DNA of 64,000 bases from Candidatus Nitrososphaera gargensis Ga9.2 (GTDB lineage Archaea; Thermoproteota; Nitrososphaeria; Nitrososphaerales; Nitrososphaeraceae), in NCBI RefSeq assembly GCF_000303155.1, contig NC_018719.1:62001-126000 (forward strand), written 5' to 3'. Both the position numbers and the translations under genes were made by a program. The notes under the pieces are model-generated. The model had not been told where the DNA came from. It was given only the letters and a program-made list of their open reading frames with translations, and searched no databases. Shown here piece by piece: positions 12,029 through 16,529 of this stretch (position 1 is the first letter of the stretch; the number at the start of each line of letters is the position of its first letter).

Positions 12029-12229
12029 ATGAAGAAGGAAAACATCATGGTACCAAAGCCGAGGAGCGCGTTTCTGTCGGTCCAGTGTGAAAAGTGCGGC
12101 GAAAAAGCTATAGTGTTTTCGCACACCACGACCAACATCAACTGTAAATCCTGCGGCGAGCTGCTGGCTGAGCGGTCTGGCGGCTTGGCAAACATCTATG
12201 GCAAAGTCTTAGGCGCTCTGGACGAGTAG
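12029..12229 (+). CDS. rps27e: 30S ribosomal protein S27e
   Basis: The 66-residue zinc-ribbon protein carries CEKCGEKAIVFSHTTTNINC and then KSCGELL, the CxxC...CxxC pattern of S27e. It is cotranscribed with L44e. The frame begins at ATG 12029; an internal Met (MVPKPRSAFLSVQCEKCG) seven codons later is where shorter homologues begin. Its last 34 bases overlap the 3' end of the convergent cobY gene. Confidence 0.93.
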   Translation: MKKENIMVPKPRSAFLSVQCEKCGEKAIVFSHTTTNINCKSCGELLAERSGGLANIYGKVLGALDE

Positions 12230-12831
12230 AGTTTTTCTGCCAGTTCTAGCTCTTGTTTTGTATTCACGTTCAACGCGATCTCTTTTCTATTCATCACTAG
12301 GTAGCGCTCCTGCACCGTTTCACCTACAACCTTGGAGGTATCAAAAATAGTGATCCCGGAATGGCAGTACCGGCCAAACACGACGCTTGGTTTTGCACCA
12401 ATGTTTTCCACAAACTCTTTCTCAAGCACTATTGAAACTGCAGGTTCTTGCTTGTTACTGGCAGAGTCGACAATATCGCCGACAGCCTGTGCATCCAGCA
12501 GTGGGATGTCGGCTGGAACCACCATGACCCTTTCCGGTTTCAACTTGGAGAGCAACCATGAAAGATCCTGCGGGTAGCCCACTCCAGAAGTCTCGATAAT
12601 TTCTATGCCTTTTGATTTCAGGAACTCTTTTGTCTCTGGCGTATTGGGTGACACTGCCGCAATGATGCGGCCAAACCTGTTCGAGCCGGCAAGCGCGGAA
12701 ATCACGCACTCTACCATGGGAACGCCACCCACATTTAGCAGCGGCTTTTCTGATCCGCCCCTATCAGTCTGCTGCTGCATTCTTGTCGCTTTGCCTCCGC
12801 ACATTATAGCAGCTACTAATACTACTGTCAA
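12196..12831 (-). CDS. cobY: Adenosylcobinamide-phosphate guanylyltransferase (CobY)
   Basis: This archaeal non-orthologous replacement of CobU transfers GMP from GTP to adenosylcobinamide phosphate. The 211-residue protein starts at TTG 12831 with MTVVLVAAIMCGGKATRM, the nucleotidyltransferase GG-x-x-x-R loop. It continues with EKPLLNVGGVPMVECVISAL and VPADIPLLD (Mg-binding Asp region, about 104-111), as in MobA/CobY-like enzymes. It is the last gene of a five-gene cobalamin operon, ten bases after cobS. The 3' end overlaps S27e in convergent orientation. Confidence 0.88.
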   Translation of the reverse strand: MTVVLVAAIMCGGKATRMQQQTDRGGSEKPLLNVGGVPMVECVISALAGSNRFGRIIAAVSPNTPETKEFLKSKGIEIIETSGVGYPQDLSWLLSKLKPERVMVVPADIPLLDAQAVGDIVDSASNKQEPAVSIVLEKEFVENIGAKPSVVFGRYCHSGITIFDTSKVVGETVQERYLVMNRKEIALNVNTKQELELAEKLYSSRAPKTLP

Positions 12832-12841
12832 AATACCGTCA

Positions 12842-13642
12842 TCACCACCACCACAGTATCATCATCGTCGGAAGTGAAGGCGGTAGTAAGGACAGCACGA
12901 TAAGCGACGACAGACGGGTCATCTCGTTTGATGCCCCAAGCACGTCGCCGGATATGCCGCCAAAGCTCTTGCCAGAGACGTACTTCATGAGCCCGGCAAT
13001 GGCAAGCGAAACGCCAAGCGCAATAAGGCCGGCATAGCTGCTGGCAAGCCACACTATCCCAAGCATGATAGCAGTGGCTGCCGCCATCCTGCGCCTGTCT
13101 TTCATTGCAGCTGTAAAGGGCGAGCTAAAGCCCTCCCACGCAGATAATCCTCTGTTTGCAAGCAGCACCATGACATACTTGGCTATCACCTCAGCCGTTA
13201 TGATGCTGGTGAAAATGGCTAGGCTGGACGAAAAGCCAGCCTGGAACACGATTATCATGCCAGCAAAGTACATGACTAGTGCCGCGACCCCTGCAGAGCC
13301 GACTGCAGGATCAAGCATTGCCTTGCGCTTTACTTCCTTGCCGCCCTTTGCCATCAGCCCATCTGCAAAGTCGGCCAGTGCATCGGTGTGGTGGACGCCT
13401 GTAATGATCACAAGTGCCCCGGCTACTAAAAGTCCAATGAGCAATGGATGCAAGCCTGCAACCGAGATGCCAAGCGCCATCGCGCCAACAATGGTGCCTA
13501 TCACAAGGCCGGCAACCGGGAACAGATACATGTTCTTGGCGACATAGTGTATATCGTGGTTTTGCTTCTGCTGCTTGCCAGAAGAAGAGGGCAGTATGGT
13601 CAGGAACGCAAGCACCGACTGGACTGGCCTAAGGGATGCCAA
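12842..13642 (-). CDS. cobS: Adenosylcobinamide-GDP ribazoletransferase (cobalamin synthase)
   Basis: This integral membrane enzyme joins adenosylcobinamide-GDP to the lower-ligand nucleoside to form adenosylcobalamin (phosphate). It begins MASLRPVQSVLAFLTILP if the TTG at 13642 is used; the frame remains open to a TTG at 13666. HHTDALADFADGLMAKG (about 95-111) is the conserved Asp-rich active-site segment of CobS. Six or seven hydrophobic helices follow. It overlaps or abuts the end of cbiB, depending on the start, which implies coupled translation. Confidence 0.9.
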   Translation of the reverse strand: MASLRPVQSVLAFLTILPSSSGKQQKQNHDIHYVAKNMYLFPVAGLVIGTIVGAMALGISVAGLHPLLIGLLVAGALVIITGVHHTDALADFADGLMAKGGKEVKRKAMLDPAVGSAGVAALVMYFAGMIIVFQAGFSSSLAIFTSIITAEVIAKYVMVLLANRGLSAWEGFSSPFTAAMKDRRRMAAATAIMLGIVWLASSYAGLIALGVSLAIAGLMKYVSGKSFGGISGDVLGASNEMTRLSSLIVLSLLPPSLPTMMILWWW

Positions 13643-14591
13643 GCACAAGCCTCCACCAGCCGGCAAGATACAGAATTGAAATTATCGGGGCAGACACGCC
13701 AATACAGAACAATAGCGTCGTGAGCTTCATTATCGAGATCGCAGTCTTGCACTTTTCAAGCGAGGCCGGCTCCTGATCGTCGCCAAGGGCATAGTGGCCA
13801 ATCTTTTCAAGCCGGACGCGTAGCGCGCCTGCCATAGTGGCCATAGGGTAGCCGGCATTGGAGCTGAACGTTTTTGCGTGGTCGCGCTGAAGCACACTAA
13901 GCGAGTTCTTCCAATCCGCGCCCAGCATCTTTGCAGATACAATCATGAGGAGCGCGGTTATCCTTGCAGGCATATAGTTTGCTGCAGTGTCAAGCCTTGC
14001 AGACATCCAGCCAATGTCCTTAAAGTAATCATCCTTGTAGCCAACCATGGAATCGAGCGTATTTATCGCCCTATAGGCAAAAGCGCCGACAGGCCCAAAA
14101 AGCGAGTAGTAAAAGATTGGCCCGGTGATCCCATCAACGGTGCTTTCGCTCACGCACTCGATAGTCGCCGACAGGATGTGCTGCTCGTCAAGGTCGTTGG
14201 TTTTGCGCCTTACTATCATGGACAGGTTCTGCCGCGCACCTGCCAAGTCGCCAGTCTCCAGACAGGACATGATTGCCTTGGCATGCCTTTCCATGCCTCT
14301 CACTGCAATGGTAATTTTCAATATTATGGCAGACGCGATGGCCAGCGCGACAATGCCTGCAAGATACATGCTTGCAAACACCAGAAAATGAACCGCCAGA
14401 GCTACCGCGATGACAAGCAAAACGGCAAACGCGGCTCCCTTGGCTTTCTCTGCCCCTCCCTTGAGCCGGGGCACGCAATAACCTACAAGCCGGCCAAGCC
14501 ACGCCACCGGGTGGTACTTGTTGGGCGGGTCGCCAAACAGCCAATCAACGCCAACACCAGCAGCAAGCGCCGCAAGTAGACCTAGCAGCAT
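13629..14591 (-). CDS. cbiB: Adenosylcobinamide-phosphate synthase (CbiB/CobD)
   Basis: This membrane protein attaches aminopropanol phosphate to adenosylcobyric acid. The signature GDPPNKYHPVAWLGRLVGY lies near residues 19-37 of the 320-residue protein, followed by membrane helices. The segments SATIECVSESTVDGITGPIF and FRAINTLDSMVGYK-like (YRAINTLDSMVGYK) are conserved in CbiB. The start is set at ATG 14591, two bases after the stop of the upstream cobyric acid synthase gene; the frame is open to 14678 but that would overlap it. The downstream neighbour is cobS. Confidence 0.92.
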   Translation of the reverse strand: MLLGLLAALAAGVGVDWLFGDPPNKYHPVAWLGRLVGYCVPRLKGGAEKAKGAAFAVLLVIAVALAVHFLVFASMYLAGIVALAIASAIILKITIAVRGMERHAKAIMSCLETGDLAGARQNLSMIVRRKTNDLDEQHILSATIECVSESTVDGITGPIFYYSLFGPVGAFAYRAINTLDSMVGYKDDYFKDIGWMSARLDTAANYMPARITALLMIVSAKMLGADWKNSLSVLQRDHAKTFSSNAGYPMATMAGALRVRLEKIGHYALGDDQEPASLEKCKTAISIMKLTTLLFCIGVSAPIISILYLAGWWRLVLGIP

Positions 14592-14593
14592 CT

Positions 14594-15445
14594 CTACAGC
14601 CCAACGACCTCTGATATCCTTTCCATATCGACACTCTCTTTTATTGCCTTTGCAACAAGGTCTATTTGCCAGTTCCAAGCTTCGCGGGGAATCTCTGCCT
14701 TGCCGGCCATGCTGCCTACAAGCGAGTCCTCTTCAGGCAGATTGAACTCTATCTTTGGGATGACGCCCAGAATCCTCTTTTTCGTCATCTTTTGCACTTC
14801 CTTGATAGCAGGCGCAAGGAGTGTGATGTCGCCCCTGAACTGGTTTATCAGGAAACCCTTGACAAGACTTCTGTGGGCCGGCTTTAGCAGCTGCATCGTG
14901 CCAACAATGCTTGCAAAGCACCCGCCACGCTCAATATCTGCCACTATTATGACGGGCGCGCCGACCTTTTGCGCAAGCAGCATGTTGGCAATGTCGTATT
15001 TTGCAATATTGATCTCTGATGGCGACCCCGCGCCTTCCATGATAACGATGTCATTTTCACTCCTCAGGCTGTCAAGCGCCTTGAGCACGGTAGAAAAGCC
15101 CTGTTGCATGACAAACTTCTCATAGTATTCCTTTGCGTGCATCTCAGAGTAGAATCGGCCGTTCAGGAAGACAATGCTTCTGTATTCGCCAATCGGCTTG
15201 AGCAGGATCGGGTTCATCAGGGGGTCCGGCTCCTTCCTTGCTGCCACTGCCTGTATCGCCTGCACCAGTGCCATCTTGGCGCCCCCGGCCGTGGCAAAAA
15301 AGTTGGACGACATGTTCTGCGCCTTGAAGGGCGCCACCTTGTAGCCCTTGCCTGAAAACAGCCTACAAAGGCCGATCACAATCGTGCTCTTGCCGGCGCC
15401 AGACGAAGTGCCCTGCACCATCACGAGCCTAGCCTTTTTAGCCAT
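14594..15445 (-). CDS. cbiP: Cobyric acid synthase, N-terminal synthetase domain only
   Basis: The 283-residue protein matches the N-terminal BioD-like ATPase domain of CobQ/CbiP, which amidates side chains of adenosylcobyrinate diamide. Motifs: P-loop VQGTSSGAGKSTI (about 9-21), FKAQNMSSNF (about 40-49), EGAGSPSEIN (about 136-145) and IVADIERGGCFASIVGT (about 166-182). CobQ is normally about 480-500 residues with a C-terminal glutamine amidotransferase domain. Here the frame ends cleanly two bases before cbiB, so the GATase part is absent and not merely frameshifted. It must use free ammonia or a separately encoded glutaminase (inference). It overlaps cobD by eight bases. Confidence 0.87.
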   Translation of the reverse strand: MAKKARLVMVQGTSSGAGKSTIVIGLCRLFSGKGYKVAPFKAQNMSSNFFATAGGAKMALVQAIQAVAARKEPDPLMNPILLKPIGEYRSIVFLNGRFYSEMHAKEYYEKFVMQQGFSTVLKALDSLRSENDIVIMEGAGSPSEINIAKYDIANMLLAQKVGAPVIIVADIERGGCFASIVGTMQLLKPAHRSLVKGFLINQFRGDITLLAPAIKEVQKMTKKRILGVIPKIEFNLPEEDSLVGSMAGKAEIPREAWNWQIDLVAKAIKESVDMERISEVVGL

Positions 15446-16529
15446 CGAACTCCTCCAGAGCCTTTAGAAGGTGCAGGTTTTCCATGTGCGATTTGACCGC
15501 CACCCTGACATATTGAGAGCCCTCCATGCCTGTGAACGTGCTGCAGTCTCTGACAAGCACTCCTGTCTTTTTCAAAAGGGCATCCCTAAACTGTGTAGAA
15601 TTCTTGCCTTGCAGATGGATAAGGAAATAGTTGGCATCTGATCTTAGTGGCTTGAAGGACTTTAGCCTGCCAATGCTATCATGCAAAAACTTGCGCTCCT
15701 TTTTGATAATTGCCCTTGCCCTTGGCAGGTGCATTCTGTCTGCTGCAAGCGCGGCAACCCCTGCAGCCTGTGCAAGGCCGTTCACGTTCCATGGGATCCT
15801 GTTTGCGGACAACTTTTCTGCAAGCGCGGGATTGCATATGCTGTAGCCTACTCTTAGGCCGGCAAGCCCAAACGACTTTGTAAGCGACCTCAGTATCACA
15901 AGGTTGTCAAATTTTTCTATCATGCCGATCATGCTGTTGGTGTCAGGTTCGTCTACAAGCTCGATAAAGCATTCATCAAGCAGGATCTTTGTCGAGCTAT
16001 CAATGTTTTCGATTATCTTTCTTATCCCCTTAGTGGAGAGCATGCCGGTAGGGTTGTTTGGGTTGCAAAGGAACACCGCTCCAGCCCCTCTTGCCTTTTC
16101 AATTACTTCATCAGCGTCAAGCTCAAAGTTGTGCAAAGGAACAAAGGTCACTTCTGCGCCGGACTTGTGCGACGCAAGCTCGTACTCGCAAAACGTAGGC
16201 GCCGGGATCACCACCCTGCTGCCTTTTGCAAACGCCTGTGCGAACCAGTAAATGATTTCCATTGCGCCGTTGCCTACGCTTATCCATTCAGGGTCGCCGA
16301 TTCGCAAATAGCGCGATAGGCTTTTCTTCAGTTCCCTGCATTCCGGATCTGGGTACATCGGAGCAAGGGACTTTGCGCCCTTTTGGATTGCTGCTATTGC
16401 TTTTAGTGGGGTTCCAAGCGGGTTGATGCTGGAGCTGCAGTCAACCTTTACTAACCGGGGGTTGACTGAATAAACGCCGCCATGAGAGCAAGCGCTCATT
16501 CCCTTGCTGGCAACCACCTTTTGACCCAT
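15438..16529 (-). CDS. cobD: L-threonine-O-3-phosphate decarboxylase (CobD-like)
   Basis: This PLP enzyme of the HisC/CobD aminotransferase fold makes (R)-1-amino-2-propanol phosphate for the cobalamin side chain. Its features are the CSSSINPLGTP start region (about 31-41), the cofactor-binding FLCNPNNPTG (about 153-162), LLDECFIE (about 183-190), and the Lys loop SLTKSFGLAGLRVGY (about 214-228). HisC is a close relative, but the SHGG...INPLG opening and the operon with cbiP, cbiB, cobS and cobY favour CobD. It is the first gene of the operon; an AT-rich upstream region (16560-16610) carries imperfect palindromes. Confidence 0.88.
   Translation of the reverse strand: MGQKVVASKGMSACSHGGVYSVNPRLVKVDCSSSINPLGTPLKAIAAIQKGAKSLAPMYPDPECRELKKSLSRYLRIGDPEWISVGNGAMEIIYWFAQAFAKGSRVVIPAPTFCEYELASHKSGAEVTFVPLHNFELDADEVIEKARGAGAVFLCNPNNPTGMLSTKGIRKIIENIDSSTKILLDECFIELVDEPDTNSMIGMIEKFDNLVILRSLTKSFGLAGLRVGYSICNPALAEKLSANRIPWNVNGLAQAAGVAALAADRMHLPRARAIIKKERKFLHDSIGRLKSFKPLRSDANYFLIHLQGKNSTQFRDALLKKTGVLVRDCSTFTGMEGSQYVRVAVKSHMENLHLLKALEEFDG

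Follow-up and report, generated by a model that had tools for sequence, protein, structure and literature searches.

Cobyric acid synthase (CobQ/CbiP) catalyzes the step that adds four of the amides of vitamin B12. The window, a 64,000-nucleotide stretch of the Candidatus Nitrososphaera gargensis Ga9.2 genome, encodes a 283-aa CbiP in which Pfam and curated profile searches detected no GATase_3 domain. This locus raises the question of where the nitrogen for the amidations comes from. A prior interpretation, the sequence-only reading, had proposed that the protein holds only the synthetase domain and that it either uses free NH3 directly or relies on a glutaminase partner encoded elsewhere. 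The relevant features of the window are as follows.

14594..15445, minus strand: cbiP/cobQ, short cobyric acid synthase without a glutaminase domain, 283 aa (NF001989, 322.9 bits; no GATase_3)
14726..15445, minus strand: residues 1-240, synthetase domain with a P-loop (GTSSGAGKS) around residue 12 (supported by the profile match and by a structure prediction, pLDDT mostly >90)
14687..14725, minus strand: residues 241-253, site of the glutaminase in full-length CobQ, with 241-248 predicted to be disordered (alignments and model)
14597..14686, minus strand: residues 254-283, retained C-terminal helical tail of full-length CobQ (tail profile, 19.3 bits; predicted helices)
13629..14591, minus strand: cbiB, adenosylcobinamide-phosphate synthase, next in the cluster (PF03186, 1.8e-88; TIGR00380; start read from the sequence)
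12842..13666, minus strand: cobS, adenosylcobinamide-GDP ribazoletransferase (PF02654 and TIGR00317, above cut-off)
12196..12831, minus strand: cobY-like guanylyltransferase (NF045495, AdoCbiP guanylyltransferase, 8.5e-27, below cut-off; TIGR00454, 7.7e-36)
15438..16529, minus strand: CobD/CobC-like PLP enzyme (threonine-phosphate decarboxylase-like), upstream of cbiP (TIGR01140, 4.4e-76, below cut-off)

The cbiP open reading frame starts with ATG, ends with TAG, and shares its strand with the CobD/CobC-like gene, cbiB, cobS, and the cobY-like gene. Only the dinucleotide AG separates its stop codon from the cbiB ATG, which makes the two-base junction described in the sequence-only reading exact. 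In profile searches, the product matched positions 2-241 of 480 of NF001989 (cobyric acid synthase) against a cut-off of 273 bits, and positions 1-235 of 477 of TIGR00313, where its score fell just under the full-length cut-off, as a match over half the profile would be expected to. The CbiA/AAA_26 nucleotide-binding domain was the only Pfam domain found, and residues invariant across CobQ are retained in the synthetase. Judged by these matches, the 283-aa protein is, as had been claimed, the synthetase half of a cobyric acid synthase and, besides a retained tail, nothing else.

Full-length CobQ is ordered as synthetase, glutaminase, and a short helical tail. When the short proteins were aligned with archaeal and bacterial full-length CobQ, their ends corresponded to this post-glutaminase tail. 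A profile of the full-length tail scored at least 5 bits in 24 of 25 short CobQs (median, 20.1; N. gargensis CbiP, 19.3), while this score was reached by 0 of 25 of the remaining portions of the same short proteins, 0 of 36 linkers following the synthetase, and 4 of 500 shuffled sequences. The predicted structure of the short CbiP (mean pLDDT, 92; pTM, 0.91) contains a single low-confidence stretch, residues 241-248, at the site of the missing glutaminase, followed by confidently predicted helices at 254-271 and 274-281. Since residues ~254-283 are homologous to the post-glutaminase tail, these comparisons indicate that the glutaminase was cut from the interior of CbiP and not lost by simple C-terminal truncation. 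The sequence-only reading was thus right that the domain is missing but not that a C-terminal domain was lost, having overlooked both the retained tail and the parallel cases in bacteria described below.

The source genome carries AmoA, and the comparison of CbiP lengths among related Nitrososphaeria that had been suggested earlier was extended to 250 genomes of the class. The CobQ model was matched in 212 of these, about 15 of them by weak matches to other proteins, which leaves ~197 (counted from the table). Short CobQ was present in ~180 of the 250 genomes and full-length frames in fifteen; among the remaining CobQ frames, the listed ones span about 280-350 aa, and the unlisted ones have scores too low for a full-length protein. 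A relative with 88% identity falls in the same length class as the 283-aa CbiP. The 174 AmoA-positive genomes belong exclusively to families f1, f2, f3, and f5. The 13 CobQs that are full length and have the Cys/His dyad intact all come from AmoA-negative genomes; none of the 174 AmoA-positive genomes has one. A naive Fisher test gives 3e-20 for this pattern, which in archaea amounts to essentially one evolutionary association and not 187 independent ones. Short CobQ is the rule in ammonia-oxidizing archaea (AOA), where it occurs throughout, together with apparent dead-glutaminase intermediates. Family f4 (e.g., G096, G145, and G162) is AmoA negative, belongs to the same order, and mostly lacks any CobQ; of these genomes, G096 consists of one contig and has a listed completeness of 100%.

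Three CobQs of ammonia-oxidizer families keep the glutaminase domain with a broken Cys/His dyad (dead INTERMEDIATES). In the AmoA-positive genome G111, and likewise in G251 of the same family, the domain is complete and Cys is retained, but Tyr stands in place of the catalytic His; in the AmoA-positive G136, the domain has shrunk, Cys is replaced by Asp, and the His motif is gone. Both dyad residues are present in 116 of 121 full-length CobQs, the five exceptions being these three and two from bacteria. In the homologous GatD, mutation of either dyad residue to Ala abolishes glutamine hydrolysis (PMC5871853). From their residues, the broken-dyad CobQs of AOA families are apparent dead intermediates. 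The short and decayed CobQs of AOA together form one clade (SH-aLRT, 99) adjoining other archaeal full-length forms. Within the gene tree, the decayed CobQs fall among the short ones, and a single AOA short clade was not rejected (p 0.39). G136 and the short-form genus g19 share one family, however, and should this be a natural grouping, AOA probably underwent excision more than once.

Short CobQs also occur in bacteria. A Candidatus Fermentithermobacillaceae metagenome-assembled genome (MAG) encodes one from which the same domain has been excised and in which the tail remains, and the class of that MAG contains five further short CobQs versus nearly 60 full-length ones. A tree test rejected grouping all short CobQs as one clade (p about 1e-15). 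No GATase_3 match at all was found in three short-CobQ Bacillota genomes (G252, G361, and G353). In three others (G275, G308, and G307), the sole strong GATase_3 gene adjoins a Mur ligase resembling MurT, and the G307 copy, the one tested, is a GatD match; the G275 genome is one contig of 3,566,135 bases. In the Tissierellia MAG S30M_St_17 (L179, 742-3559; also L063), adjacent full-length CbiA and CobQ both lack the glutaminase catalytic Cys, suggesting that all six amidations draw on ammonia. By these sequence comparisons, Bacillota excised or broke the CobQ glutaminase independently of AOA. Given the short or broken CobQs of Bacillota and Tissierellia, loss of this glutaminase is not limited to ammonia oxidizers. 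Several of these bacteria may come from ammonium-rich settings. Of the short CobQs with this excision at Bacillota loci L108 and L211-L215, some lie in corrinoid salvage-like clusters with transporter genes. A full-length Bacillota CobQ in G313 (locus L216), which lacks both catalytic residues, is another decaying case.

The N. gargensis genome, a single contig of 2,833,868 bases, was searched as a whole by family profiles only. GATase_3 (PF07685) gave four matches, namely the fused domain of the 461-aa CbiA, PdxT, HisH, and PurQ. GATase (PF00117) added TrpG, proteins of GuaA, CarA, and PyrG lengths, a ~183-aa GuaA-like orphan, and a 254-aa general glutamine amidotransferase-like protein. Neither a stand-alone CobQ-type glutaminase nor a second CobQ was found by these profile searches of the single-contig genome. 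A separate CobQ-type glutaminase, a full-length CobQ elsewhere, and a sequencing error that restores the domain had been named beforehand as evidence that would speak against the sequence-only reading; all were looked for, and none was found. Elsewhere in the class, extra GATase_3 matches in the family of G067 were considered as a new partner and rejected, as they comprise fused CbiA and short, weak-scoring proteins; the latter, judged by length and score alone, resemble PdxT, HisH, PurQ, and GuaA-like GATases. No CobQ-type glutaminase is thus left in the N. gargensis genome, and the orphan class-I GATase of another family is still present.

Genome positions 1255809-1256342 (G000:C1, locus L164): orphan class-I GATase, ~183 aa, GuaA N-terminal-like (weak GuaA match)

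The main alternative explanation, which we consider unlikely, is that CobQ is served in trans by a glutaminase from another family, and this orphan is the strongest candidate for that role. It was present in 13 of 13 AOA genomes looked at, although a full-length GuaA-sized protein is also there; it has no assigned partner, and its GuaA match is weak (93.8 bits versus a cut-off of 172). Its neighbors in AOA are a membrane protein of ~950 aa, which we take to be UPF0182-like, and usually a ~320-aa TPR-like protein and a primase-like gene. The membrane protein gene adjoined it in 10 of 10 AOA loci read, and the orphan was never among cob genes. At first the orphan seemed to be near CbiA (at distances of 6-18 kb in several genomes), a view that was dropped once its immediate neighbors were read. 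Because this neighborhood is unrelated to cob genes, we retain the orphan only as a weak candidate partner of CobQ. As for partners of the GATase_3 family, the Bacillota that have short CobQ but no GATase_3 indicate that a short CobQ needs none.

It is far less probable that the glutaminase domain of CbiA (a,c-diamide synthase) gives NH3 to CobQ in trans. The AOA CbiA carries the only GATase_3 left on a cobalamin enzyme, with its Cys and, where checked, its His motif retained; however, ammonia channels normally run within one protein or a tight complex, cbiA and cbiP are far apart in the N. gargensis genome, and the three short-CobQ Bacillota without GATase_3 have no CbiA-type domain to serve as a donor. 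We give marginally less credence still to the short protein being a relic or having another role, with cobyric acid no longer made. Some Bacillota short CobQs do occur in genomes without GATase_3 and hence without intact CbiA, where a salvage role is possible, but the synthetase residues are long conserved, the gene holds a cob cluster position coupled to cbiB, no other CobQ was found in the genome, and AOA produce cobalamin, which has been detected in Nitrosopumilus maritimus cultures (PMC8281238). Removal of the domain by a sequencing error, frameshift, or pseudogene formation can be dismissed, given the in-frame tail, the coupling of the stop to cbiB, and the absence of the domain from ~180 genomes of the same length class; the sequence-only reading had likewise argued against a recent frameshift.

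Taken together, the sequence data favor the reading, to which we assign a probability of roughly 0.75, that cbiP encodes a working single-domain cobyric acid synthase fed by free NH3. Of the two possibilities raised at the outset, free NH3 or a partner elsewhere, the short form across AOA and the dead-glutaminase intermediates favor direct use of NH3. From the cob cluster and cobalamin production by AOA, we infer that the short CbiP makes adenosylcobyric acid by four amidations. On the substrate, adenosylcobyrinic acid a,c-diamide, ATP would activate each carboxylate to be amidated (b, d, e, and g), and free NH3 from solvent, rather than NH3 delivered via a glutaminase channel, would attack the activated carboxylate to form the amide. 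Early in AOA, CobQ may have come to be fed by free ammonia, whereupon the glutaminase would have decayed and the dead domain been deleted; the tail would have been retained because it is packed as part of the synthetase core. In its broader form, we consider it probable, if somewhat less so, that CobQ replaced glutamine with free ammonia as its nitrogen donor on two or more occasions, in AOA and in Bacillota, with the glutaminase inactivated and then excised from between synthetase and tail. Against the free-NH3 reading, ammonia surplus alone fails to predict a loss confined to CobQ, since AOA keep the intact CbiA glutaminase as well as PdxT, HisH, and PurQ, and marine AOA inhabit waters very poor in ammonium. 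How much ammonium AOA cells contain is not yet known (PMC10432482).

AOA have been put forward as a major source of aquatic vitamin B12 (PMC4303638). If the free-NH3 reading is true, the amide nitrogen of AOA B12 at four positions comes straight from the pool that feeds energy metabolism, and evolution has made a glutamine amidotransferase ammonia dependent, a change that was repeated independently in bacteria and whose dead intermediates survive in extant relatives. Compact glutaminase-free cobyric acid synthases might also find use where glutamine costs more than ammonium. The CobQ family itself is already known, and the domain loss is a variant of it. Doxey et al. (2015; PMC4303638) established the presence of cobalamin synthesis genes in these archaea using the TIGR00313 CobQ model as a marker, and the word "amidotransferase" is absent from the main text of that article. 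No report of a glutaminase-less CobQ was found in the literature searched, which covered sources other than subscription journals.

Compared with full-length CobQ/CbiP (NF001989, TIGR00313), the short CbiP shares the synthetase domain, the C-terminal tail, and the cob context but lacks the Cys/His-dyad glutaminase carried between synthetase and tail, which was apparently excised and of which none is left in the genome. No solved CobQ structure was found by sequence search, and the nearest solved fold is that of dethiobiotin synthetase BioD, likewise an ATP-dependent synthetase without a glutaminase domain; BioD, however, uses CO2 instead of ammonia, acts on a different substrate, and is 15-19% identical to the short CbiP. 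In MurT/GatD, a CobQ-type glutaminase is similarly not fused to its synthetase, but GatD sits beside MurT and the pair uses glutamine, whereas the short CbiP is without such a partner. Single-domain NadE (NH3-dependent NAD synthetase) is, like the short CbiP, a synthetase without a glutaminase, although its fold and substrate are unrelated and its ammonia use is measured where ours is inferred. For most single-domain NadE members, the choice between free ammonia and an unknown glutaminase subunit was settled in favor of free ammonia (PMC3376133).
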